This document shows, in pieces, positions 1,524-59,955 of a stretch of DNA of 64,000 bases. The notes under the pieces were generated by a model. It was given only the letters and a program-made list of their open reading frames with translations. It made no database searches and had not been told where the DNA came from. The first letter of the stretch is position 1. Each line of letters begins with the position of its first letter. Made by a program: the position numbers and the translations under genes. The stretch is from assembly GCA_011053055.1 (NCBI GenBank), contig DRHT01000040.1, positions 1-64,000 on the forward strand, written 5' to 3'. The DNA comes from Halopseudomonas sabulinigri (GTDB taxonomy: Bacteria > Pseudomonadota > Gammaproteobacteria > Pseudomonadales > Pseudomonadaceae).

Positions 1524-3096
1524 GCAGGTAGACTCGCAACGCCCGCGCATACTGCGTCTATACAACATATACCGCGTCATTTTGGGCTTTGGCCTTACCA
1601 TGCTGACCAACTCGGTTCTGCGTGACGGCCTGCTGGACTTGAGCAATCCCCCGCTCTACGAAAAAGCCAGCTGGATCTATTTGTTTATCAATGTGCTGAT
1701 CGCTTTGCTGCTGCATCGGGGCCGTCGTGACCTGTACGTGTTCATCATCACGCTGGCCGACATTGGCATGCTTGGTGTGGTTTTCTTCGCTGCTGGCGGT
1801 GCCGGCAGCGGTTTCGGCAACCTGCTGATCATCCCCGTCGCCATCGGCAATATTCTGCTGCATGGCCGTATTGGCCTGCTGCTCCCGGCGCTGGCCAGCA
1901 TCGGTCTAATCTACCTGACCTTCTTCCTCAGTCTGACCCACCCTTATGTTGGCCAAAGCTACCTGCAGGTCGGCGTACTGGGCTGCATTTATTTTGCCGT
2001 CGCACTCTTCGTACAGCGCATCAGCCGGCAGCTCTACTTATCTGAGACCCTGGCCCAACAACAGGCTGCCAGCTTGGCCAGTTTGGAGCAGCTGAACCAG
2101 CTGATCATTCATCGCATGCGCACCGGCATTCTTGTGGTGGGCTCAGCTAACCGCATCATCACTGGCAACGAAGCCAGCGCTCAAATGCTTGCGCGCCCCA
2201 TCCAGGCCGGCGCGGCGCTGGACAAATTGGTTCCCGAACTGGATCAGCGTTTGCAACAATGGCGGCGTAACCCTTCCACTCGCTCGACCTCGTTTCACAG
2301 CCATAGTGGCAGCGCCGAAATACTGGCCAACTTCAAACCCCTGGGCGGCAGTGGCGACAAAACCATCCTGATTTTTCTTGATGACAATACTCAAGTCGCG
2401 CAACAGGCGCAGCAACTCAAACTGGCTTCACTCGGGCGCCTAACGGCCAGCATCGCTCACGAGATCCGTAACCCTTTGGGGGCCATCAGCCATGCTGCCC
2501 AGCTGCTCAACGAATCAGATCAGCTGTGCAAACAGGATCTGCGTCTGACCGAAATCATTCAGCAGCATTCGCAGCGTATGAACCGCGTCATTGAAACCGT
2601 GCTGGAGCTATCAAGACGCCGCCCCAGCGAGCCACAGCTGGTTGACCTGGCACTTTGGACATCGAACTTCATCGGCGATTTTAGTTCGGCTAACCCGGCC
2701 ACTGACGTCATCGACTGTGAGATTGAGAAAGAAGGCATACTCACGCGCATCGATCCCAACCAAATGACTCAAGTGCTCAACAATCTCTGCCAGAACGCCC
2801 TGCGCTACAGCGGTACGGCCGGCAGCGAACGAACCATTTATCTGAAGTTGTTCGAGGACGGCATCAGTCAGTTGCCCACGCTGGAGGTCATCGACTACGG
2901 TCCGGGTGTCGCGGATGAACACGTGGGTCACATTTTTGAGCCCTTCTACACCACCGAAGCCAGCGGCACCGGGCTAGGCCTGTATATTTCTCGCGAACTG
3001 TGCGAAAGCAACCAAGCGCGATTGGAATACCAAGCTGGCAGCCCGACCGGTAGCTGCATGCGCATTACCTTTGCGCATCCCAAGCGACTGGTATGA
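1507..3096 (+). CDS. pilS: Sensor histidine kinase PilS
   Basis: Membrane histidine kinase that, in Pseudomonas, controls PilR and hence pilA transcription. I chose ATG 1507 (GGAG 8 bp upstream; the protein begins MQSQTEQ) rather than the longer open frame from 1426. This gives 529 residues, the usual PilS size. The N-terminal third has about six hydrophobic membrane segments, followed by a PAS-like region. The phosphoacceptor H-box AHEIRNPLG carries His at about residue 318. A HATPase domain follows, with an N-box (NNLCQNALRYS), a G1 box (DYGPGV) and a G2 box (GTGLGLYIS). The C-terminal half is strongly PilS-like. pilR follows after a 125-bp gap that holds a small inverted-repeat element. 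Confidence 0.95.
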   Translation: MQSQTEQVDSQRPRILRLYNIYRVILGFGLTMLTNSVLRDGLLDLSNPPLYEKASWIYLFINVLIALLLHRGRRDLYVFIITLADIGMLGVVFFAAGGAGSGFGNLLIIPVAIGNILLHGRIGLLLPALASIGLIYLTFFLSLTHPYVGQSYLQVGVLGCIYFAVALFVQRISRQLYLSETLAQQQAASLASLEQLNQLIIHRMRTGILVVGSANRIITGNEASAQMLARPIQAGAALDKLVPELDQRLQQWRRNPSTRSTSFHSHSGSAEILANFKPLGGSGDKTILIFLDDNTQVAQQAQQLKLASLGRLTASIAHEIRNPLGAISHAAQLLNESDQLCKQDLRLTEIIQQHSQRMNRVIETVLELSRRRPSEPQLVDLALWTSNFIGDFSSANPATDVIDCEIEKEGILTRIDPNQMTQVLNNLCQNALRYSGTAGSERTIYLKLFEDGISQLPTLEVIDYGPGVADEHVGHIFEPFYTTEASGTGLGLYISRELCESNQARLEYQAGSPTGSCMRITFAHPKRLV

Positions 3097-3118
3097 TGAG
3101 GAAAGCCTGTTTTTCTAG

Positions 3119-3197
3119 CAGCCCGTTGAAAAACCTATACGCGATAGCCATTTTTTACGCCTTAGTGGCGACGCCGGTAGCTTTCAACAGTCGGCTA
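3119..3197. repeat. Short inverted-repeat element (MITE-like) between pilS and pilR
   Basis: The left end reads AGCCCGTTGAAAAAC (from 3120) and the right end, read on the other strand, AGCCGACTGTTGAAAG (3181-3196). These form an imperfect terminal inverted repeat around about 45 bp with no open frame. Sequences ending in such GTTGAAAA/TTTTCAAC arms are common as small mobile relics in Pseudomonas genomes; that comparison is from memory. No second copy was found in this window, so mobility is an inference. Confidence 0.45.
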
Positions 3198-3221
3198 AAG
3201 CAAGGAGCATTCTAGGCAGAC

Positions 3222-4565
3222 ATGACCAAACCGACCGTTCTGATCATCGACGATGAGCCCGACATCCTTGAGTTGCTGGATATGACGCTTGCGCGCATGA
3301 ACGTCTGCACGCAGAGCGCAACCACCATGACCCAGGCTCTCACGCTGCTGCGCAGCAATAAGTACGCGCTCTGCCTGACCGACATGCGTCTGCCCGATGG
3401 CGATGGTATGAGCCTAGTGCGGCATATCCAGCAGCACAGCCCAAGCACGCCCATTGCCATGATCACCGCATACGGCAGCCTGGATACCGCTATCAACGCA
3501 CTCAAGGCAGGGGCGTTCGACTTTTTGACCAAGCCCGTTGACCTGCAGCGCTTGCGTGAGTTGGTCTCCAGCGCGCTGAAACTACACCAAGCGCCAACCG
3601 AACCTGAAGAGCAACAACAAGATCAACTGCTTGGCATATCACCGCCCATGGAGAGCCTGCGCAAACAAATCGGCAAGCTGGCGCGCAGTCAGGCGCCGCT
3701 CTACATCAGTGGTGAGTCAGGCAGTGGCAAGGAGCTGGTGGCGCGGCGCATTCACGCTCTCGGGCCACGCGCCGAGCAGCCGTTTGTGCCGGTCAACTGT
3801 GGCGCGATTCCCTCTGAGCTGATGGAAAGTGAGTTTTTCGGCCACCGTAAGGGCAGCTTCACCGGTGCCGTAGCAGACAAGCCGGGGCTTTTTCAGGCAG
3901 CCAGTCACGGCACTCTGTTTTTAGATGAAGTTGCCGATCTGCCAATCGCTATGCAGGTAAAATTGCTGCGCGCCATTCAAGAAAAAGCAGTAAGGCCGTT
4001 AGGTACGCAGCAGGAAGAGTCGGTCGATGTTCGCCTGCTCTGCGCTACCCACAAGGATCTAGCCAACGAAGTAGCCGAAGGCCGCTTCCGACAGGATCTT
4101 TTCTATCGTATTAACGTAATTGAATTGCAGGTGCCACCGCTGCGAGAGCGCCGCGAAGATCTGCCCATGCTGACTCACCATATTCTAGAGAAGCTGGCAT
4201 TGCGCAACGGCATGCCCGCCCCACGAATCAGCGATAGCTGCATGGAACTGCTGTGCAATTACCGCTTTCCGGGCAACGTACGCGAGCTGGAAAACACCTT
4301 AGAGCGGGCGTTCACCCTGTGCGAAAACCATCGTATCGAACCCTCAGACCTACAGCTGTCAGGCTGCCCCTCGCCCGGTGGCGATGACGGCCACGACTTG
4401 AGTCAGATCGACCATCTCGAAGACTTTCTCGACAATATCGAGCGCCAAGCTATCACCCAGGCACTGGAAGAGACTCGCTGGAACAAAACCGCCGCTGCAA
4501 AGCGGCTGGGGCTGACCTTTCGTTCGTTGCGCTATCGACTTAAAAAGCTAGGCCTGGAGGACTGA
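3222..4565 (+). CDS. pilR: Sigma-54-dependent response regulator PilR
   Basis: Activator of pilA with RpoN. It has 447 residues, the family's normal length. The receiver domain (1-120) has acidic residues D10-D11, the phosphoacceptor D54 in LTDMRLPDG, and TKP with the conserved Lys. The AAA+ domain (about 135-370) has Walker A GESGSGKE, the sigma-54 contact loop GSFTGA (a common variant of GAFTGA) and Walker B-type LFLDEVADL. A Fis-type helix-turn-helix lies at the C-terminus (NKTAAAKRLGLTFRSLRYRL). AAGGAG lies 14 bp before the ATG, a somewhat long spacing. A candidate target promoter is seen before pilA at 47055-47070. The gene ends convergently with thiO. Confidence 0.95.
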   Translation: MTKPTVLIIDDEPDILELLDMTLARMNVCTQSATTMTQALTLLRSNKYALCLTDMRLPDGDGMSLVRHIQQHSPSTPIAMITAYGSLDTAINALKAGAFDFLTKPVDLQRLRELVSSALKLHQAPTEPEEQQQDQLLGISPPMESLRKQIGKLARSQAPLYISGESGSGKELVARRIHALGPRAEQPFVPVNCGAIPSELMESEFFGHRKGSFTGAVADKPGLFQAASHGTLFLDEVADLPIAMQVKLLRAIQEKAVRPLGTQQEESVDVRLLCATHKDLANEVAEGRFRQDLFYRINVIELQVPPLRERREDLPMLTHHILEKLALRNGMPAPRISDSCMELLCNYRFPGNVRELENTLERAFTLCENHRIEPSDLQLSGCPSPGGDDGHDLSQIDHLEDFLDNIERQAITQALEETRWNKTAAAKRLGLTFRSLRYRLKKLGLED

Positions 4566-29169: not shown

Positions 29170-29197
29170 GCTGGCCGGGATGGAACCCGGCCTTCCA
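29170..29197 (+). repeat. REP-type hairpin repeat, single copy
   Basis: Stem GGCCGGG / CCCGGCC around loop ATGGAA, preceded by GCT and followed by TTCC. This is the GC variant of the repeat found eight more times at 53.1, 55.1-55.3 and 59.8 kb. It sits 17 bp beyond the stop codon of the HemD-like gene. Confidence 0.88.
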
Positions 29198-53105: not shown

Positions 53106-53309
53106 GCTGGCCGGGATGGAACCCGACCTTCCAATGTGCGGCGGGTAGACGGGTGGTGATTTGGGGACAAATTCTGGGGGCTTAAGTTTTGGAAGGTCGA
53201 GTTCCATCTCGACAAGCGAGCTACCCGGCGACAAGACTCTGGATATTCAGCACATAACAGCAGCGGTGTATTGGGTGATGCCGCTGGCCGGGATGGAACC
53301 CGGCCTTCA
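53106..53309. repeat. REP cluster 1: three hairpin repeats in alternating orientation
   Basis: Copies: 53106-53133 (+, GC variant GGCCGGG, right arm with one change), 53190-53217 (-, AT variant GGTCGAG/CTCGAC), 53283-53309 (+, GC variant, perfect stem). Loop ATGGAA throughout and TTCC flank. The 65 bp before the first and third copies are also clearly similar (for example CAGCAG and GGATATT shared), so the duplicated unit is about 90 bp. Confidence 0.9.
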
Positions 53310-53370
53310 AAGACGGCCAATCCCGCTGGCGTCAAGCTCCTCTAGGCGTGGTACTAGCTGAGGGATATGC

Positions 53371-53393
53371 GCTTGGAAGCTTCAGCTTCAAGC
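53371..53393 (-). terminator. Possible hairpin terminator of ispH
   Basis: GCTTGGAAGCT pairs with AGCTTCAAGC with one bulged base and a 2-nt loop, 17 bp beyond the ispH stop on the minus strand. There is no T tract, so it could instead be an RNA-stabilising hairpin. Confidence 0.35.
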
Positions 53394-53410
53394 CTAACCA
53401 AACTACAGCC

Positions 53411-54358
53411 TCACTCGACCTGAACCACTCGCAGCTCTTTAGGCATACTGAAAACGATATTCTCTTCTTGCCCTGCGAGCTCTTCTGCCCCGGTCGCGCC
53501 TTGTGCATGCAAATGCTGGATCACCTGCCGCACTAGCACATCAGGTGCTGAGGCGCCGGCTGTTACGCCAATATTGGACACCGCCGTCAGCCACTCAGGC
53601 TTGATCTCATCTGCGCCATCAATCAGATAAGCAGGGGTGCCCATTCGCTCAGACAGCTCCCTTAGTCGATTGGAATTGGAGCTGTTTGGGCTGCCAACCA
53701 CCAAAACCAAGTCACAATCACGAGCCAGCTGTTTGACCGCGTCTTGGCGGTTCTGGGTGGCGTAGCAAATGTCATCCTTGCGTGGGCCATCAATGGCTGG
53801 AAAACGGGAACGCAGCGCATCGATCACCCGCGCCGTATCATCCATCGACAAGGTTGTTTGTGTGACAAAAGCCAAGCGCTCAGGATTAATCACTTGCAGC
53901 TTGGCTACATCTGCTTCGTCTTCGACCAGATAGATAGCGCCGCCCTGACTGGCGTCATACTGGCCCATAGTTCCTTCGACTTCCGGGTGGCCGGCGTGGC
54001 CGATAAGCACGCATTCGCTGCCATCACGGCTGTAACGCGTTACTTCCATGTGCACCTTGGTAACCAGCGGGCAAGTCGCGTCAAAAACCTTGAGACCACG
54101 ATCGGCTGCTTCCTGGCGCACTGCCTGAGACACCCCATGGGCGCTGAAGATAACGATGACGTCATCTGGCACCTGATCAATCTCTTCCACAAAGATTGCG
54201 CCACGGCTACGCAAGTCTTCCACCACAAATTTGTTATGCACTACTTCATGGCGTACATAAATGGGTGGGCCGAACACTTCGAGGGCACGGTTGACGATCT
54301 CGATGGCGCGATCAACGCCTGCGCAAAAGCCGCGGGGGTTAGCCAATTTGATCTGCAT
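53411..54358 (-). CDS. ispH: 4-hydroxy-3-methylbut-2-enyl diphosphate reductase IspH
   Basis: Iron-sulfur enzyme that makes IPP and DMAPP in the last step of the MEP isoprenoid pathway. 315 residues, normal length. The three cluster cysteines are C12 (GFCAGV), C96 (DATCPLV) and C198 ([10 protein letters not shown]). Substrate residues are seen in [20 protein letters not shown] and [12 protein letters not shown]. Same strand as fkpB and lspA, as in P. aeruginosa. Confidence 0.97.
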
Positions 54359-54454
54359 GAGTACCTCGGAAAGAGAAAGCTGATATCGGCGGATTATCCA
54401 TCATCAAGATGGAGAATGCGATTTTAAGCCAATGGGATTACACAGAAGGCTTGA

Positions 54455-54892
54455 TTAGGCCGCCTGTACATCGATAATTTCGACATCAAATGTGATGATT
54501 TTACCGGCCAGCGGATGGTTGAAATCGACCTCAACCACCGTTTCATGGATGGTTTTGACGACGCCCGGCAATTCACCGCCAGCGGCATCTTTAAAGATCA
54601 CCAGCAGGCCTTCTTCTAACTCCATTTCATCAAACTGATCGCGCGAGATATTCTGCAGATTTTGCGGGTTGCCGGGGCCAAAACCACGTTCAGGTTCGAT
54701 CTCGAAACTGCGCTTATCTCCGGCTTTGAGGCCAAACAGCGCCTGTTCAAAACCTGGTAGCAAACTGCCGTCGCCGACTTTAAAGGTAGCTGGCTGCTTA
54801 TCTAGAGTAGTGTCGACTACGTCGCCGTTGGGCAATTTCAGCGTGAAATGCAGGGTAACCAAGGTGTCGTGGTTGATGCGCAGATCAGTCAT
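54455..54892 (-). CDS. fkpB: FKBP-type peptidyl-prolyl isomerase (SlpA-like)
   Basis: A 145-residue prolyl isomerase/chaperone. DTTLDKQPATFKVGDGSLLPGFEQAL and GLKAGDKRSFEIEPERGFG form the FKBP core, the NPQNLQNISRDQF region is the inserted flap (IF domain) and FNHPLAGKIITFDVEI closes the fold. The SlpA/FkpB type lies beside ispH and lspA in many gammaproteobacteria, as here. A 96-bp gap separates it from ispH; the 470-bp gap upstream holds REP cluster 2. Confidence 0.93.
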   Translation of the reverse strand: MTDLRINHDTLVTLHFTLKLPNGDVVDTTLDKQPATFKVGDGSLLPGFEQALFGLKAGDKRSFEIEPERGFGPGNPQNLQNISRDQFDEMELEEGLLVIFKDAAGGELPGVVKTIHETVVEVDFNHPLAGKIITFDVEIIDVQAA

Positions 54893-55361
54893 TTGGGTAT
54901 CTCAGTATTGATTTTAGCGTGTCGTGCTGAATTTTACGGGCGACCTGCATTTAAGCAGACCAGATTAAACATCCTGTCAGTGACTTAGCAAAAACCTAGT
55001 CATTTCTGGCTCTCAATACTGGAGCAACAGCATGAGCGAGCGGGTGTCTGTTTACAAAGCATCCTAGGCAGGAAGGCCAGGGGACGTACGAACTGCACAC
55101 TCGCGCTACCTTGCATCACCCACCAACGGCGCTACTGGCTAGGGCGCTGGTCGAGATGGAACTCGACCTTCCATAAACAAAACCGTGTGCATCACAGGTG
55201 CTGAGCCAACTATAAAACACCGCTCCCGGAAGGCCGGGTTCCATCCCGGCCAGCGAGCTAACCGAACACTCGCACTGTGGCGTCTCACTCACCAAAAAGG
55301 CCATTAAATAAGACGCTGGTCGAGATGGAACTCGACCTTCCAGAAGCAGCTGGTAGCGTTT
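54893..55361. other. Intergenic region with three REP-type repeats between lspA and fkpB
   Basis: About 470 bp. fkpB and lspA are usually adjacent, so the insertion of REP cluster 2 (55146-55342) is the main reason for this gap. No gene is seen. The promoter of fkpB should be in 54893-55140 but is not clear. Confidence 0.65.
55146..55342. repeat. REP cluster 2: three hairpin repeats in alternating orientation
   Basis: Copies: 55146-55173 (+, AT variant), 55228-55254 (-, GC variant), 55315-55342 (+, AT variant), all with perfect 7-bp stems and loop ATGGAA or its complement. The spacer after the middle copy starts AGCGAGCTAACCG, like AGCGAGCTACCCG at the same place in cluster 1. The last copy lies 20 bp beyond the lspA stop. 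Confidence 0.93.
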
Positions 55362-55859
55362 CTAGTTTTCAGTTTTCTTCTTACCGACAAACATATCCAG
55401 AATTAGCAGCGCAGCGCCAACGGTAATCGCGCTATCGGCAATGTTGAACGCGGGGAAGAACCACCTTTGTTGCCAGTGCACCAGAATAAAATCAACCACG
55501 TGGCCTAGTACCACGCGGTCATACAGATTTCCCAACGCGCCGCCGAGAATGAGTGCAAGAGCAATAGCTTCCAGCCGTTTGCTGCGGTCCAGCCGTGACA
55601 ACCAAACACACAGCACGACACTCACCACCACGGCAATCGCTGCAAACAACCAACGCTGCCAGCCAGCGGCGTCAGCCAGAAAGCTAAACGCGGCGCCCGT
55701 GTTATAGGCCAGGGTAAAGCTGAATAGATCAGCTATGACCGGTACCTGCTGGTACATTTCCAGGTTGTTTACCGCGACCCATTTGGTCAACTGATCCAGA
55801 GCGATAATTAGCAGCGACAGCCAAAGCCACGCCAGACTGCCTTTTTTGGCCTCAGGCAT
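55362..55859 (-). CDS. lspA: Lipoprotein signal peptidase
   Basis: Inner-membrane aspartyl protease that removes signal peptides from diacylated prolipoproteins. I chose ATG 55859 (GAGG 9 bp upstream; 8-bp overlap with ileS) over GTG 55874, giving 165 residues. Four membrane helices; catalytic Asp residues in GNLYDRVV and [18 protein letters not shown] near the start and NTGAAFSF are also conserved. It is coupled to ileS as in P. aeruginosa. BamD in this window is one expected client. Confidence 0.96.
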
Positions 55860-58677
55860 GCTGACGAACCTCACCAGCGCCTTCGATGTTGTCTACGCAG
55901 CGGCTGCAAATCTCAGGATGTGCGGCGTGCGTGCCCACGTCTGCGCGGAAATGCCAGCAGCGCGCGCATTTGGTTTCAGTTGATTTAAGAATACGCAACT
56001 TGAGGCCAGGCAGCTCAGTCTCCACCGCATCGGCACCAGCCTCTGCCAAGGGCGCTAAGGCCGCCTGGGAAGTGATCAACACGAAGCGTAGCTCATCGCC
56101 CAGCTTCGCCAGCTGCTCGCTCAAGGCCGACTCAACAAAGAGGGTGACTTCTGCCTCAAGGTTGCCGCGAATGGCTTTGGCGCTTCGCAGGTTCTCTAGT
56201 TCTTTATTGACCGCTTCTTTAACACCCATCACGGTGTTCCAAAATTCGCGACCTAAGGCTTGATCCGCTGGCAGTTCAGCCAGACCGTCATACCAAGCAT
56301 TCAGCATCACAGAATCATTATGCTCGCCTGGCAGGTACTGCCACAGCTCCTCCGCTGTAAACGAGAGCACCGGTGCGATCCAGCGCACCAGCGCTTCGGC
56401 AATGTGATACAACGCGGTCTGGCAGGAGCGGCGCGCAATACTGTTAGCCTGCGTGGTGTACTGGCGATCCTTGATGATATCCAGATAAAAGCCGCCCAAT
56501 TCCTGCACACAGAAGTTATGCACTTTTTGGTAGACGTTCCAAAACTTGTAGGTGTCGTAAGCCTCGACGATTTCCGCCTGCAGCAAACGCGCCCGATCAA
56601 CCGCCCAACGATCCAAGTCCAGCATCTGCTCTGGCGGCAGCGCGTCGACCTTGGGATCGAAGCCATTCAGGTTCGACAGCAGGAAGCGTGCGGTATTACG
56701 GATACGACGATAAGCATCGGCACTGCGCTGCAGGATCTGGTCAGATACCGCCATCTCACCTGAGTAGTCGCTGGAACACACCCACAGACGCAGAATGTCA
56801 GCGCCGAGTGTGTCGTTGACCTTTTGCGGAGCGATGGTATTGCCCAATGATTTGGACATCTTGCGGCCGTTCTCATCGACAGTAAAACCGTGCGTGAGCA
56901 AACCGCGATAAGGCGCGTGACCATCAATCGCACAACCCGTCAGCAGAGACGAATGGAACCAACCACGATGCTGATCCGAGCCTTCCAAATACAGATCAGC
57001 CAACGGGCCCTGAGCATGCCCCATAGGGTTTGAGCCACGCATCACGTGCCAATGGGTTGTTCCGGAATCAAACCAGACATCCAGCGTATCGCTGATTTTA
57101 TCGTACTGCGCTGCTTCTTCACCCAGCAGTTCGCTGGCTTCCATATCAAACCAGGCATCGATACCGCCCTGCTCTACTTTCTGAGCAACTTGCTCAATTA
57201 GCTCGATGGTGCGCGGGTGCAGGTCACCGCTTTCCTTATGCAGGAAGAAAGGGATCGGCACGCCCCAGTTTCGCTGACGCGAGATACACCAGTCTGGGCG
57301 ACCGGCAATCATATTATGCAGGCGCTGCTTGCCCCACGCAGGTACAAAATCAGTCTGCTCAATCGCGTTAAGCGAGCGTTCACGCAGGGTTTCGCCGCCC
57401 GCGACAGGAATATCCATGCCGACGAACCATTGCGCCGTTGCGCGATAGATCAGTGGCGTTTTGTGACGCCAGCAATGCATATAGCTGTGCTGGATACTCT
57501 CATGCTTGAGTAACGCACCCACTTCTTCAAGCTTGGTGACGATGGCTGGATTGGCCTTCCAGATAAACTGGCCACCAAAAAATGGCAGATCGTTTACATA
57601 GACGCCGTTGCTTTGTACTGGGCTGAAGATGTCGTCATTGGTCATGCCGTAGCGCTTGCAGGTGCGGAAGTCATCCTCACCATAGGCGGGGGCTGAGTGC
57701 ACCACGCCGGTACCGGCGTCCAGTTCAACGTAGTCAGCCAAATAAATCGGTGACAGGCGGTCGTAGAACGGATGACGGAAGTTGATCATTTCCAGCGTCG
57801 CGCCTTCAGCGGTAGCCACAACCTTGCCTTCCAGACCATAACGAGCAAGGCAATCTGCAACCAGGTCTTCAGCTAGCAGCAACAGCCGCTCGCCGGTATC
57901 AACCAGCGCATAGGTGAATTCCGGATGCACGTTCAGCGCCTGGTTGGCAGGAATGGTCCACGGTGTGGTAGTCCAGATCACAATGGCCGCTGGCTTAGGC
58001 AATGTTGCCAAACCAAAGGCTGTCGCTAGCTTGTCTGCATCTTCTACCGCAAATGCAACGTCGATAGCCTCTGACTTCTTATCCTGATACTCAACTTCGG
58101 CTTCAGCCAGCGCCGAGCCGCAATCAAAACACCAGTTGACCGGCTTCAATCCCTTGAAGACAACACCCTGCTCAACCATTTTACCCAACGCACGAATCTC
58201 GCCAGCTTCATTGGCGTAGTTCATGGTCAGGTAAGGGTTATCCCAATCACCCAGTACGCCGAGGCGAATAAAATCAGCCTTCTGCAAGGCGACCTGCTCG
58301 GTGGCGTAGGCGCGGCTAAGCTCACGCACCTTGTCCGCGGGTAAATGCTTGCCGTGGGTCGTCTCGATTTTGTGCTCAATCGGCAGACCATGACAGTCCC
58401 AGCCCGGCACGTAGGGCGCATCAAAGCCGGATAACGTCTTGGAGCGGACGATCATGTCTTTAATGATTTTGTTCAGCGCGTGGCCAATGTGAATCACCCC
58501 GTTGGCGTAGGGGGGGCCATCGTGCAGGATGAATTGCGGGCGACCCTGGCTGACTTCACGGATACGCTGGTATAAACCATCAAGGCGCTTGAGGGTCTCC
58601 GGCTCGCGGTTTGGCAACCCCGCTTTCATCGGAAAATCCGTGGCGGGCAGGTTCAGTGTCGCTTTGTAATCAGTCAT
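55852..58677 (-). CDS. ileS: Isoleucyl-tRNA synthetase
   Basis: Class I synthetase charging tRNA-Ile. 941 residues. HIGH-type motif in [14 protein letters not shown] and KMSKS in [11 protein letters not shown]. The editing domain has [13 protein letters not shown]. The C-terminal zinc site has CARCWHF and CSRC, typical of eubacterial type 1 IleRS. It begins 22 bp after the ribF stop and overlaps lspA. No tRNA-dependent leader was seen. Confidence 0.98.
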
Positions 58678-58699
58678 CTAGATTCAGGCTCTTTTAAGT

Positions 58700-59626
58700 T
58701 CACAGGCCCCATTGGGCCCTGGCCGCGGCAAAATCAGCCTTGATTGCCGCCTGCAATGCATCCAGCGAGTCGAAGCGTTGCTCCTCTCGCAATTTTTCGT
58801 GAAATACGACATCCAACCGACGACCATAAAGATCGCCATCAAAATCGAAAAGATGGACTTCCAGGTGCGCTTTGCCGTCACTCTTCACCGTCGGCCGCTT
58901 ACCGATGTTGGCAACGCCTTTTTGCAGAACACCATCCAACTCGACGCTCACGCGGTAAACGCCATGCAAAGGAGGATTAACACGCTTCAATTGAACGTTC
59001 GCGGTGGGTGCGCCAATGGTGCGGCCAAGTTGTTGGCCATAAAGCACACGCCCAGCGATACTGAATGGCCGCCCCAGCAGCCGCTCGGCCAAGGCAAAGT
59101 CACCCTCTGCCAACACTTGCCGCAAGCGGGTACTACTAATGCGTTCGCCACTTTCGGCAACGGTGTTGGCCGCCTCGACAGTGAAGCCATGCTGCTCACC
59201 ACTACTTTGCAGGAAAGCAAAATCGCCGGAGCGATCACAACCAAAGCGGAAGTCGTCACCGACCTCCAAGTGCTGGACACCCAACCCCTCAATAAGCACT
59301 TGCTGCACGAACTGCTCGGCGCTTAGCTCACGCAAGCGTCGATTGAAGGCCAAGCACAATACTCGGTCAACGCCCTGTGCTTGCAGCAACGCCAGTTTCT
59401 CACGCAAGCGCGTCAGGCGCGGCGGAGCCGCATCGGGGGCGAAGTACTCGCGTGGTTGGGGTTCGAAAATAACCACGCAACCGGGCAGGCCGAGACGTTC
59501 AGAGTGCGCCTGCAACCTGGACAGAATCGCCTGGTGGCCAGCATGCACGCCGTCGAAGTTGCCGATTGTTGCGACACAGCCCCGATGCCGGGGCCGCAGA
59601 TTATGTAGACCGCGGACCAGTTCCAT
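58700..59626 (-). CDS. ribF: Bifunctional riboflavin kinase/FAD synthetase
   Basis: Makes FMN and FAD from riboflavin. 308 residues. The N-terminal nucleotidyltransferase has GNFDGVHAGHQAIL and the FAD-synthetase motif ISSTRLR; the C-terminal kinase domain has GAPTANVQL, HGVYRVSVELDG and GKRPTVKSDG with DLYGRRLDVVFHEKLREEQRFDS. Normal length. Same strand as ileS; the upstream gap contains REP cluster 3. Confidence 0.96.
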   Translation of the reverse strand: MELVRGLHNLRPRHRGCVATIGNFDGVHAGHQAILSRLQAHSERLGLPGCVVIFEPQPREYFAPDAAPPRLTRLREKLALLQAQGVDRVLCLAFNRRLRELSAEQFVQQVLIEGLGVQHLEVGDDFRFGCDRSGDFAFLQSSGEQHGFTVEAANTVAESGERISSTRLRQVLAEGDFALAERLLGRPFSIAGRVLYGQQLGRTIGAPTANVQLKRVNPPLHGVYRVSVELDGVLQKGVANIGKRPTVKSDGKAHLEVHLFDFDGDLYGRRLDVVFHEKLREEQRFDSLDALQAAIKADFAAARAQWGL

Positions 59627-59955
59627 AATGCTCGTTAGTGGTGAATCAGTCGAAACCCTGGAGTATACAGGTTTGCGACTACCAACGTCATTCCCGCTGT
59701 GGCCGAAGACGCTTACGGGCAGTCACCTCTGACGACAGCGCCATAGCATTTGACAGGAGCCTCGTAACAGCATCTGAGCAAGCACCCAGGCCGCTGGCCA
59801 AAATGGAACCCAACCTTCCACAGCGCCAATGGTTTTTTGGAGGGTCGAGTTCCATCTCGACCAACAGACCAACAGACCAACCGACAGCTCAGTTTATTTC
59901 TGAACACCAGAGTGGCAAGCGCCCGCGGCGTTACCTACGCCAGCAGCAGGGGACT
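59627..59955. other. Intergenic region with REP pair between ribF and murJ
   Basis: About 330 bp between the ribF start and the murJ stop. It contains REP copies at 59793-59820 and 59838-59865. Downstream of the pair is a short simple repeat of AACAGACC (59863-59880). No gene is seen. Confidence 0.65.
59793..59865. repeat. REP cluster 3: inverted pair
   Basis: 59793-59820 (+) is a degenerate GC-type copy (GGCCAAA against CCCAACC, stem mostly lost, loop ATGGAA kept) and 59838-59865 (-) is an AT-type copy with an intact stem. The 17-bp spacing makes this a compact REPIN-like pair. Confidence 0.85.

Follow-up and report, generated by a model that had tools for sequence, protein, structure and literature searches.

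What kind of element are the nine copies of a short hairpin lying between the genes of this stretch of Halopseudomonas sabulinigri DNA, and why do their stems come in two versions? The stretch analysed here (the window, 64,000 nucleotides) is part of contig C40 of a genome of 3.82 Mb in 66 contigs, from the genus Halopseudomonas. Its hairpins very probably belong to a family of repetitive extragenic palindromes (REPs) organized as bacterial interspersed mosaic elements (BIMEs) and linked to a REP-associated tyrosine transposase (RAYT), the REPs spreading as non-autonomous heterodimer doublets through a RAYT encoded on contig C59. Read with its 5' tag first, each copy has the form TGGAR-hairpin (loop TTCCAT)-AGCGG, and would act as a hairpin of single-stranded DNA whose 5' tag, TGGAR, points outwards and lies on the strand complementary to that of the ATGGAA loop. 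The unit would pair a GC-stem copy with an inverted AT-stem copy, their tags facing outwards and a spacer of 24 or about 72 nt between them, and repetition of such units head to tail would give BIME-2-like arrays.

All nine copies listed by a first-pass annotation of this DNA are present, its starts lying 3 to 5 nt ahead of the stem. They are given here as 20-nt cores, with neighbouring genes named from their Pfam families:

29173..29192, plus strand: GC-variant core (GGCCGGG-ATGGAA-CCCGGCC), a lone copy in the gap from a Lon-like protease gene to hemD
53109..53128, plus strand: GC-variant core, first in its cluster, in the gap from a NUDIX/thiamine-phosphate synthase gene to ispH; the 3' arm CCCGACC leaves one A.C pair
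53195..53214, minus strand: AT-variant core (TGTCGAG/CTCGACC), the 5' T breaking the outer pair
53286..53305, plus strand: GC-variant core, forming a tags-outward doublet with the minus-strand copy at 53195 (spacer 71 nt); flank TTCA
55149..55168, plus strand: AT-variant core, in the gap from fkpB (an FKBP-type gene) to lspA
55232..55251, minus strand: GC-variant core, in the fkpB-lspA cluster
55318..55337, plus strand: AT-variant core, forming a tags-outward doublet with the minus-strand copy at 55232 (spacer 66 nt)
59796..59815, plus strand: decayed copy (GGCCAAA/CCCAACC) of neither variant, in the ribF-murJ gap, with 2/7 pairs on this strand
59843..59862, minus strand: AT-variant core, in the ribF-murJ gap; flank CTCC

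The ATGGAA loop, described as common to all copies, is indeed found in 9/9, and all nine are intergenic. The TTCC flank, also described as shared, is present in seven of the nine, the exceptions being the copies at 53286 (TTCA) and 59843 (CTCC). Similarly, the claim of two stem variants with pairing kept on both arms stands for the six copies with a perfect stem, but not for those at 53109 and 53195, which are imperfect, or for that at 59796, which fits neither variant. In this decayed copy, all five of the differences from the GC variant (5/5) are changes of G to A on one strand, and the other strand keeps G.T pairing. The pattern ATGGAA-N7-TTCC has eight matches in the window versus 0.13 expected, a number reached by 0/100 shuffles, one of the eight being the same copy counted again from the opposite strand. 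No Rfam family matches the window at its gathering score.

The hairpin is abundant in the rest of the genome, as expected of a REP. The pattern GGNCGRGATGGAACYCGNCC has 70 exact copies, 81 when up to one mismatch is allowed, and none in its reversed control form. A more tolerant scan, confined to the surroundings of these 81 matches, yields 91 copies in 29 clusters (seven of them single copies), comprising 44 GC-type, 46 AT-type, and one unclassifiable copy. A covariance-model search, named beforehand as the test for further copies, likewise returns 91 matches at E <= 0.01 with a model built on 84 copies; 150 of the 1770 candidates were scored genome-wide, and the 91 copies may be a floor. Two exact stems account for 71 of the 91 copies (36 and 35), and three arrays of 8, 11, and 12 copies contain 31 of them.

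Adjacent copies were claimed to alternate in both orientation and variant. The alternation in orientation holds throughout the genome, since all 62 neighbour pairs up to 130 bp apart are inverted. The opposition of variants is strict for the tags-outward doublets, all 32 of which join both variants, and over all neighbours it becomes "nearly always": 59 of the 62 pairs combine a GC-type with an AT-type copy, one involves the unclassifiable copy at 59796, and two are of the same variant (two GC-type copies at C37:3548/3632 and two AT-type copies at C40:66786/66871). None of 10,000 label shuffles (mean 32, maximum 45) reaches the observed 60, that is, the 59 pairs plus the unclassifiable one.

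The spacers of the tags-outward doublets fall at 24–25 nt (16 doublets), 66 nt (one), and 71–72 nt (15), with related sequences between unlinked loci. Among the 30 tags-inward neighbours, to which both homodimers and the decayed pair belong, the spacer varies from 27 to 89 nt. Because the tags-outward pairs are all heterodimers, and their spacers are conserved as in the published rule for head-to-head (HH) and tail-to-tail (TT) spacers, the tags-outward heterodimer is likely the replicating unit. The arrays are composed of near-identical tandem units, with up to 12 copies. The regular spacing, alternating orientation, and repeated units of a BIME are therefore all found, as are the inverted doublets of conserved spacing, here in two main classes, that characterize a REPIN (a REP doublet forming a hairpin). 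On the tag strand, the four bases adjoining the stem are GGAA or GGAG in 88 of the 91 copies, in a scan whose score itself includes the flank.

Compensated changes on both arms had been taken as a sign of selection on structure. In an alignment of 84 copies (65 distinct ones from this genome and 19 from five relatives), 95.7% of the stem cells are paired and 76 two-sided changes are observed versus 28.6 in shuffles, either value being reached by 0/500 shuffles. By contrast, 47 of the 500 shuffles reach the count of pairs with two-sided changes (4 vs. 2.8) and 48 reach that of further pair types (9 vs. 7.8), as would be expected if the signal were mostly that of two fixed alleles. The covariation in cells and score thus supports selection on structure, but the two-sided changes are mainly those two alleles, and the cell count far exceeds the number of independent events. 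Since TGGAR, the outward tag, is mostly complementary to the TTCCAT loop of the same hairpin, a competing hairpin is conceivable; this second pairing was discarded, as 80.3% of its cells pair with a covariation no better than that of shuffles. A tolerance for G.T pairs on the tag strand is not claimed either: the imperfect pairs on the ATGGAA strand are 13 A.C, 6 G.T, and 12 of other types, with five of the 13 A.C pairs derived from a single copy.

The search for a RAYT flanked by the same repeat, which the first-pass annotation had also suggested, leads to two genes of this type. Five Y1_Tnp matches exist in the genome, and two of them fall into the close RAYT set of the genus, both among REP arrays. 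Contig C30 carries none of the five, and its array of 11 copies, the second largest, has no RAYT in the 2.5 kb examined (L090). Of the two genes, the first is the putative mobilizing enzyme:

C59 (locus L088), 2900-3523, minus strand: RAYT gene between arrays of 8 and 5 copies

This protein reaches 89.9 bits with the NCBIfam model REP_Tyr_transpos (cut-off 80) and retains both H-V-H and Y-I-H-Q-N-P, the HUH and Y---NP motifs of RAYTs. Its sole match among solved structures is 4er8, TnpArep. The second gene, on C37, is flanked by the repeat together with cysQ, and is discussed below. Given these features, the C59 RAYT would most likely recognise and cleave the tagged hairpins, which would then spread as non-autonomous doublets. 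The original suggestion of a REP/BIME/REPIN-like family moved by a RAYT is thus supported by the further copies, the alternation elsewhere, and the RAYT genes, all of which were found.

The exact pattern is restricted in its distribution. It occurs in 14 of the 38 genomes searched, the present one included and all 14 from Halopseudomonas, and in one of 293 genomes drawn from the order (119 genera), the sole match being this genome and the other 292 lying outside the genus. Of the 37 genus genomes, 29 contain matches to the covariance model; it was trained on six of these genomes and hence under-counts families with other stems, and 150 candidates were scored per genome. Its median count is 14 in the 21 genomes with a non-degenerate RAYT (this one included), 6 in the seven with only a degenerate one, and 1 in the nine without RAYT.

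The RAYTs of relatives are flanked by sister two-stem repeats. In genomes G010, G013, G020, and G023, inverted sister hairpins of two differing stems are found on both sides of the RAYT, and in G005 on one side only, with stem pairs such as GGCCGAG/TGTCGAG, GGCCGGG/TGTCGAG, and GGCCGGG/TGGCGAG. In a doublet scan of loci from ten genomes, limited to ATGGAA-type loops, all 41 tags-outward doublets found in seven relatives (G005 26, G010 7, G020 3, G015 2, and one each in G004, G009, and G013) have differing stems (41/41), in nine combinations; G023, G046, and G047 gave no tags-outward pair. Other hairpin families were also observed beside RAYTs, in loci L202 (G017), L206 (G024), L207 (G044), L204 (G042), L209 (G014), and L195 (G046), and their stems include TGTCGCGC, TGCCGAGT, CCTTGAGC with GCGGGAGC, TGTCGAGC with GGACGACG, and GGTCGAG with TGACCGAG. 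Among them, unrelated alternating two-stem hairpins adjoin the RAYTs of G042 and G014. In two copies of G005 (L107 2173 and 2265), the tag is GTGGGAG and includes GTGG, a head known from published Pseudomonas REPs.

The fkpB-lspA gap differs in length between genomes. Here it holds three hairpins and spans 469 bp; in G012 and G043, whose LspA is 89% identical, it measures 91 and 222 bp, respectively, and the 27 remaining relatives have gaps of 0 to 322 bp. By pattern, one of the 29 relatives (G047) holds a hairpin of this kind in the gap (30 loci of 37 genomes). As judged from these comparisons, the repeats at fkpB-lspA appear to have been gained in this lineage.

Several observations weigh against movement by the C59 RAYT. 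No GT(A/G)G or CGTC head adjoins the palindrome, where the tag is TGGAR; however, since the tag has been described as "most often GTAG" (PMC8266576), TGGAR represents a departure from the known systems rather than an exclusion from them. The copies nearest to the C59 RAYT (L088 2818 and 3657) share the same orientation, so the gene is not delimited by two inverted REPs, and a decayed inverted REP proposed upstream of it was rejected, with alignment scores of 19 and 22 versus a shuffle maximum of 28. Thirteen neighbour pairs of the same orientation are present in the loci of relatives (seven in G005 and six in G046); between the copies of G046 lies an inverted one whose stem differs. Four genomes (G017, G018, G042, and G044) have a RAYT and no model matches, with hairpins of another kind beside three of these genes; conversely, G004 and G019 have 31 and 18 model matches without a RAYT at E <= 1e-20, both in fragmented assemblies. 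Finally, the copies, alternation, spacer classes, RAYT linkage, and covariation are features of the sequence itself, and RAYT-driven movement is deduced from them rather than from observed excision, transposition, or cleavage.

The second part of the question concerns the two stems. A survey of tagged REPs states that the predominance of heterodimers "has no obvious explanation" (PMC3733652). The reason favoured here is that RAYTs, and replication more generally, need hairpins that fold separately. If the inverted stems were identical, they would anneal to one another as a single long hairpin or cruciform, and the two short hairpins that the RAYT would require would be masked. Compensated changes on both arms would disrupt this long palindrome and still preserve both short hairpins; we infer that this is why the stems differ. 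Folding energies computed with DNA parameters, leaving the tags and spacer unpaired, are consistent with this explanation. In the 22 of 32 tags-outward doublets with two perfect stems, scored on both strands, two short hairpins have a mean of -16.1 kcal/mol versus -7.8 for the long inter-copy hairpin, and are favoured in 44/44 strands. When either partner was replaced in silico to give homodimers, the long form reached -23.4 kcal/mol and two hairpins were favoured in 0/44 strands for each version. Tags-inward pairs (24 of 30 scored) favour two hairpins in 46/48 strands. Under these settings, the folding of a doublet into one long hairpin, as described for REPINs, is favoured in none of the 44 strands.

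The energy result depends, however, on the tags and spacer being left unpaired: in a made-up consensus doublet whose tags are able to pair, both forms of the heterodimer are about equal (-2.1 to +0.6 kcal/mol), and the long form is favoured by 17–19 kcal/mol in the corresponding homodimers. In addition, the stems of one G015 doublet differ by a single pair, so that an 18-bp match remains. The heterodimer rule could also be inherited from a few founder doublets.

Two alternatives address the two stems only. According to the first, which is compatible with the main explanation, heterodimers persist as the SbcCD nuclease destroys long palindromes, the folding required by the RAYT being irrelevant. 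Di Nocera et al. proposed that SbcCD spares heterodimers and quoted its minimum as 8–16 bp (PMC3733652), and the longest perfect match between doublet partners (<=8 bp in all 32 own doublets and <=14 bp in 40 of the 41 from relatives) is under or within that range. Nevertheless, SbcD reaches its curated cut-off in four of the 37 genus genomes (G005, G009, G013, and G038), and its best match in the present one is 23 bits versus a cut-off of 77.65. SbcC is likewise not recognised here, with a best match of 24 bits in what we take, from its sequence features, to be the start of an SMC-like protein. Both searches weaken SbcCD as the cause, although in the 14 control genomes the SbcD cut-off is passed by 8 and the SbcC cut-off by 1, making the SbcC test a weak one and leaving room for diverged forms or another hairpin nuclease. 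Destruction by SbcCD is therefore considered unlikely, and the need of the RAYT and of replication for separately folding hairpins is preferred.

The second alternative, that alternation reflects the copying of a few founder doublets without any selection for differing stems, would account for the near-identical tandem units of the arrays and for the predominance of two exact stems (71/91 copies), but it is at odds with the nine stem combinations and the lack of homodimers among the 41 doublets of relatives, and with the fact that both homodimers of this genome are tags-inward neighbours; it is judged improbable to about the same degree. Far less probable still is that the repeats are host elements at gene ends (for termination, mRNA stabilisation, or gyrase/IHF binding) spread by recombination and not by a RAYT, since, despite their intergenic position in the window and the description of such roles for E. 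coli REP/BIME (PMC2817692, PMC3686654), the hairpin is followed by [CT]TCC and variable sequence with no T-run (no dedicated terminator scan was made), a third of the copies (31/91) are packed into three arrays, the exact pattern is limited to one genus, and the two nearest relatives lack repeats at the fkpB-lspA gap.

In addition to the C59 enzyme, through which the doublets would spread, this genome has a second RAYT with signs of degeneration:

C37:10678-11301 (locus L089, 7876-8502), minus strand: degenerate RAYT, flanked jointly with cysQ by arrays of 12 and 4 copies
C37:9762-10541, same strand as the RAYT: cysQ, directly downstream of the degenerate RAYT

In this protein, NQLH replaces NHVH, an Asp replaces the catalytic Tyr, and a Ser replaces the metal-binding Asn (for the roles of these residues, see PMC6006769), and its score is 66.4 bits versus the cut-off of 80. 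Neither the catalytic Tyr, the HUH motif, nor the metal-binding Asn of active RAYTs is thus retained. A RAYT directly upstream of cysQ on the same strand is found in eight genomes, each from a different Halopseudomonas species (G000, which is the present one, G002, G006, G012, G021, G039, G040, and G043; orthologous loci L183 to L189), and near none of the other cysQ genes in the 22 loci examined (about 1.5 kb on each side; 30 loci of 41 matches). The frame is intact in seven of the eight, that of G021 having one stop. The seven intact proteins form a single group (99/99; 100% of 200 bootstrap trees; midpoint root), in which the Tyr and the Asn are absent in 7/7 and one His of the HUH motif in 5/7.

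Despite this loss, the frame is under constraint, as shown when the differences between four pairs of close sequences are split by codon position (54/26/107, 48/26/109, 31/15/87, and 38/19/94); by a crude estimate, neutral drift would yield 6 to 8.4 stops per pair. These counts are preferred to dN/dS, which is rough here, with dS > 1 or not computable for all pairs of the degenerate clade. The AlphaFold2 model of the P. neustonica ortholog (mean predicted local distance difference test score 80, residues 1–31 below 50) has the RAYT 4er8 as its best match (E 8.9e-7, TM-score 0.55 by query length). The neighbouring cysQ is of a diverged type, with 69–80% identity to the one of this genome in the other seven, 56–64% in five further genomes without the degenerate RAYT, and 40–49% elsewhere. 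This diverged cysQ is the only match at E<=1e-40 in the eight genomes, and the five genomes with the related type all add a second, more distant copy.

It is possible, with the balance somewhat against it, that the C37 RAYT belongs to a clade of single origin whose nuclease is off and whose protein is kept as a domesticated REP- or hairpin-binding protein, here binding the flanking arrays and possibly restraining the active RAYT. The locus scans found the stem and loop of the REP family near the gene in this genome only, and near none of the other seven degenerate RAYTs. Pseudogenised RAYTs with stops and frameshifts have been described (PMC3686654), and in a large phylogenomic study the tree was restricted to sequences with the HuH and Y motifs (PMC6006769). 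The degenerate clade represents natural material to study the service of RAYTs to their hosts apart from DNA cutting.

Compared to known systems, the family is known in kind, as alternating heterodimers have been described before, in E. coli as well as in other REP families. The main text of PMC3733652 makes no mention of Halopseudomonas or pertucinogena, and neither this family nor retained catalytically degenerate RAYTs are named in the titles and abstract starts among the matches listed, which is weak evidence. The E. coli REP/BIME system (y, z1, and z2) with TnpAREP (yafM) shares with the present one the inverse mosaics of y and z stem variants, the tandem arrays, and a RAYT gene with BIME-2 on both sides (PMC8266576, PMC2817692). 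Unlike E. coli REPs, those of this genome have a perfect stem of 7 bp with a 6-nt loop and no bulge, a different sequence, and TGGAR instead of GTAG as the tag, and they share their genome with a second RAYT, which is degenerate.

The REPINs of P. fluorescens (GI, GII, and GIII) are similar in their inverted doublets, conserved spacing, and link to RAYTs, but they are symmetrical and form one hairpin (PMC3116915), whereas the partners of the present doublets differ and two short hairpins are favoured. Heterodimers are also found among the HH/TT dimers of Di Nocera et al., namely GTAG-24 of P. aeruginosa (with different stems) and GTAG-3 of enterobacteria (with different loops), where HH spacers are generally conserved and TT spacers variable (PMC3733652); the tag of the present family differs from both GTAG and CGTC. 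What this family adds is mismatched stems predicted to fold separately, in a genome without recognisable SbcCD, and a clade of degenerate RAYTs at cysQ. With 73/73 tags-outward doublets being heterodimers (32 in this genome and 41 in seven relatives), it offers a clean case for the heterodimer question, in which the rule holds where SbcCD is unrecognised and the two stems differ in a way that would allow independent folding of the hairpins. If the domestication of the C37 RAYT is true, its combination with this rule would make both the cause of heterodimers and the host role of RAYTs directly testable.

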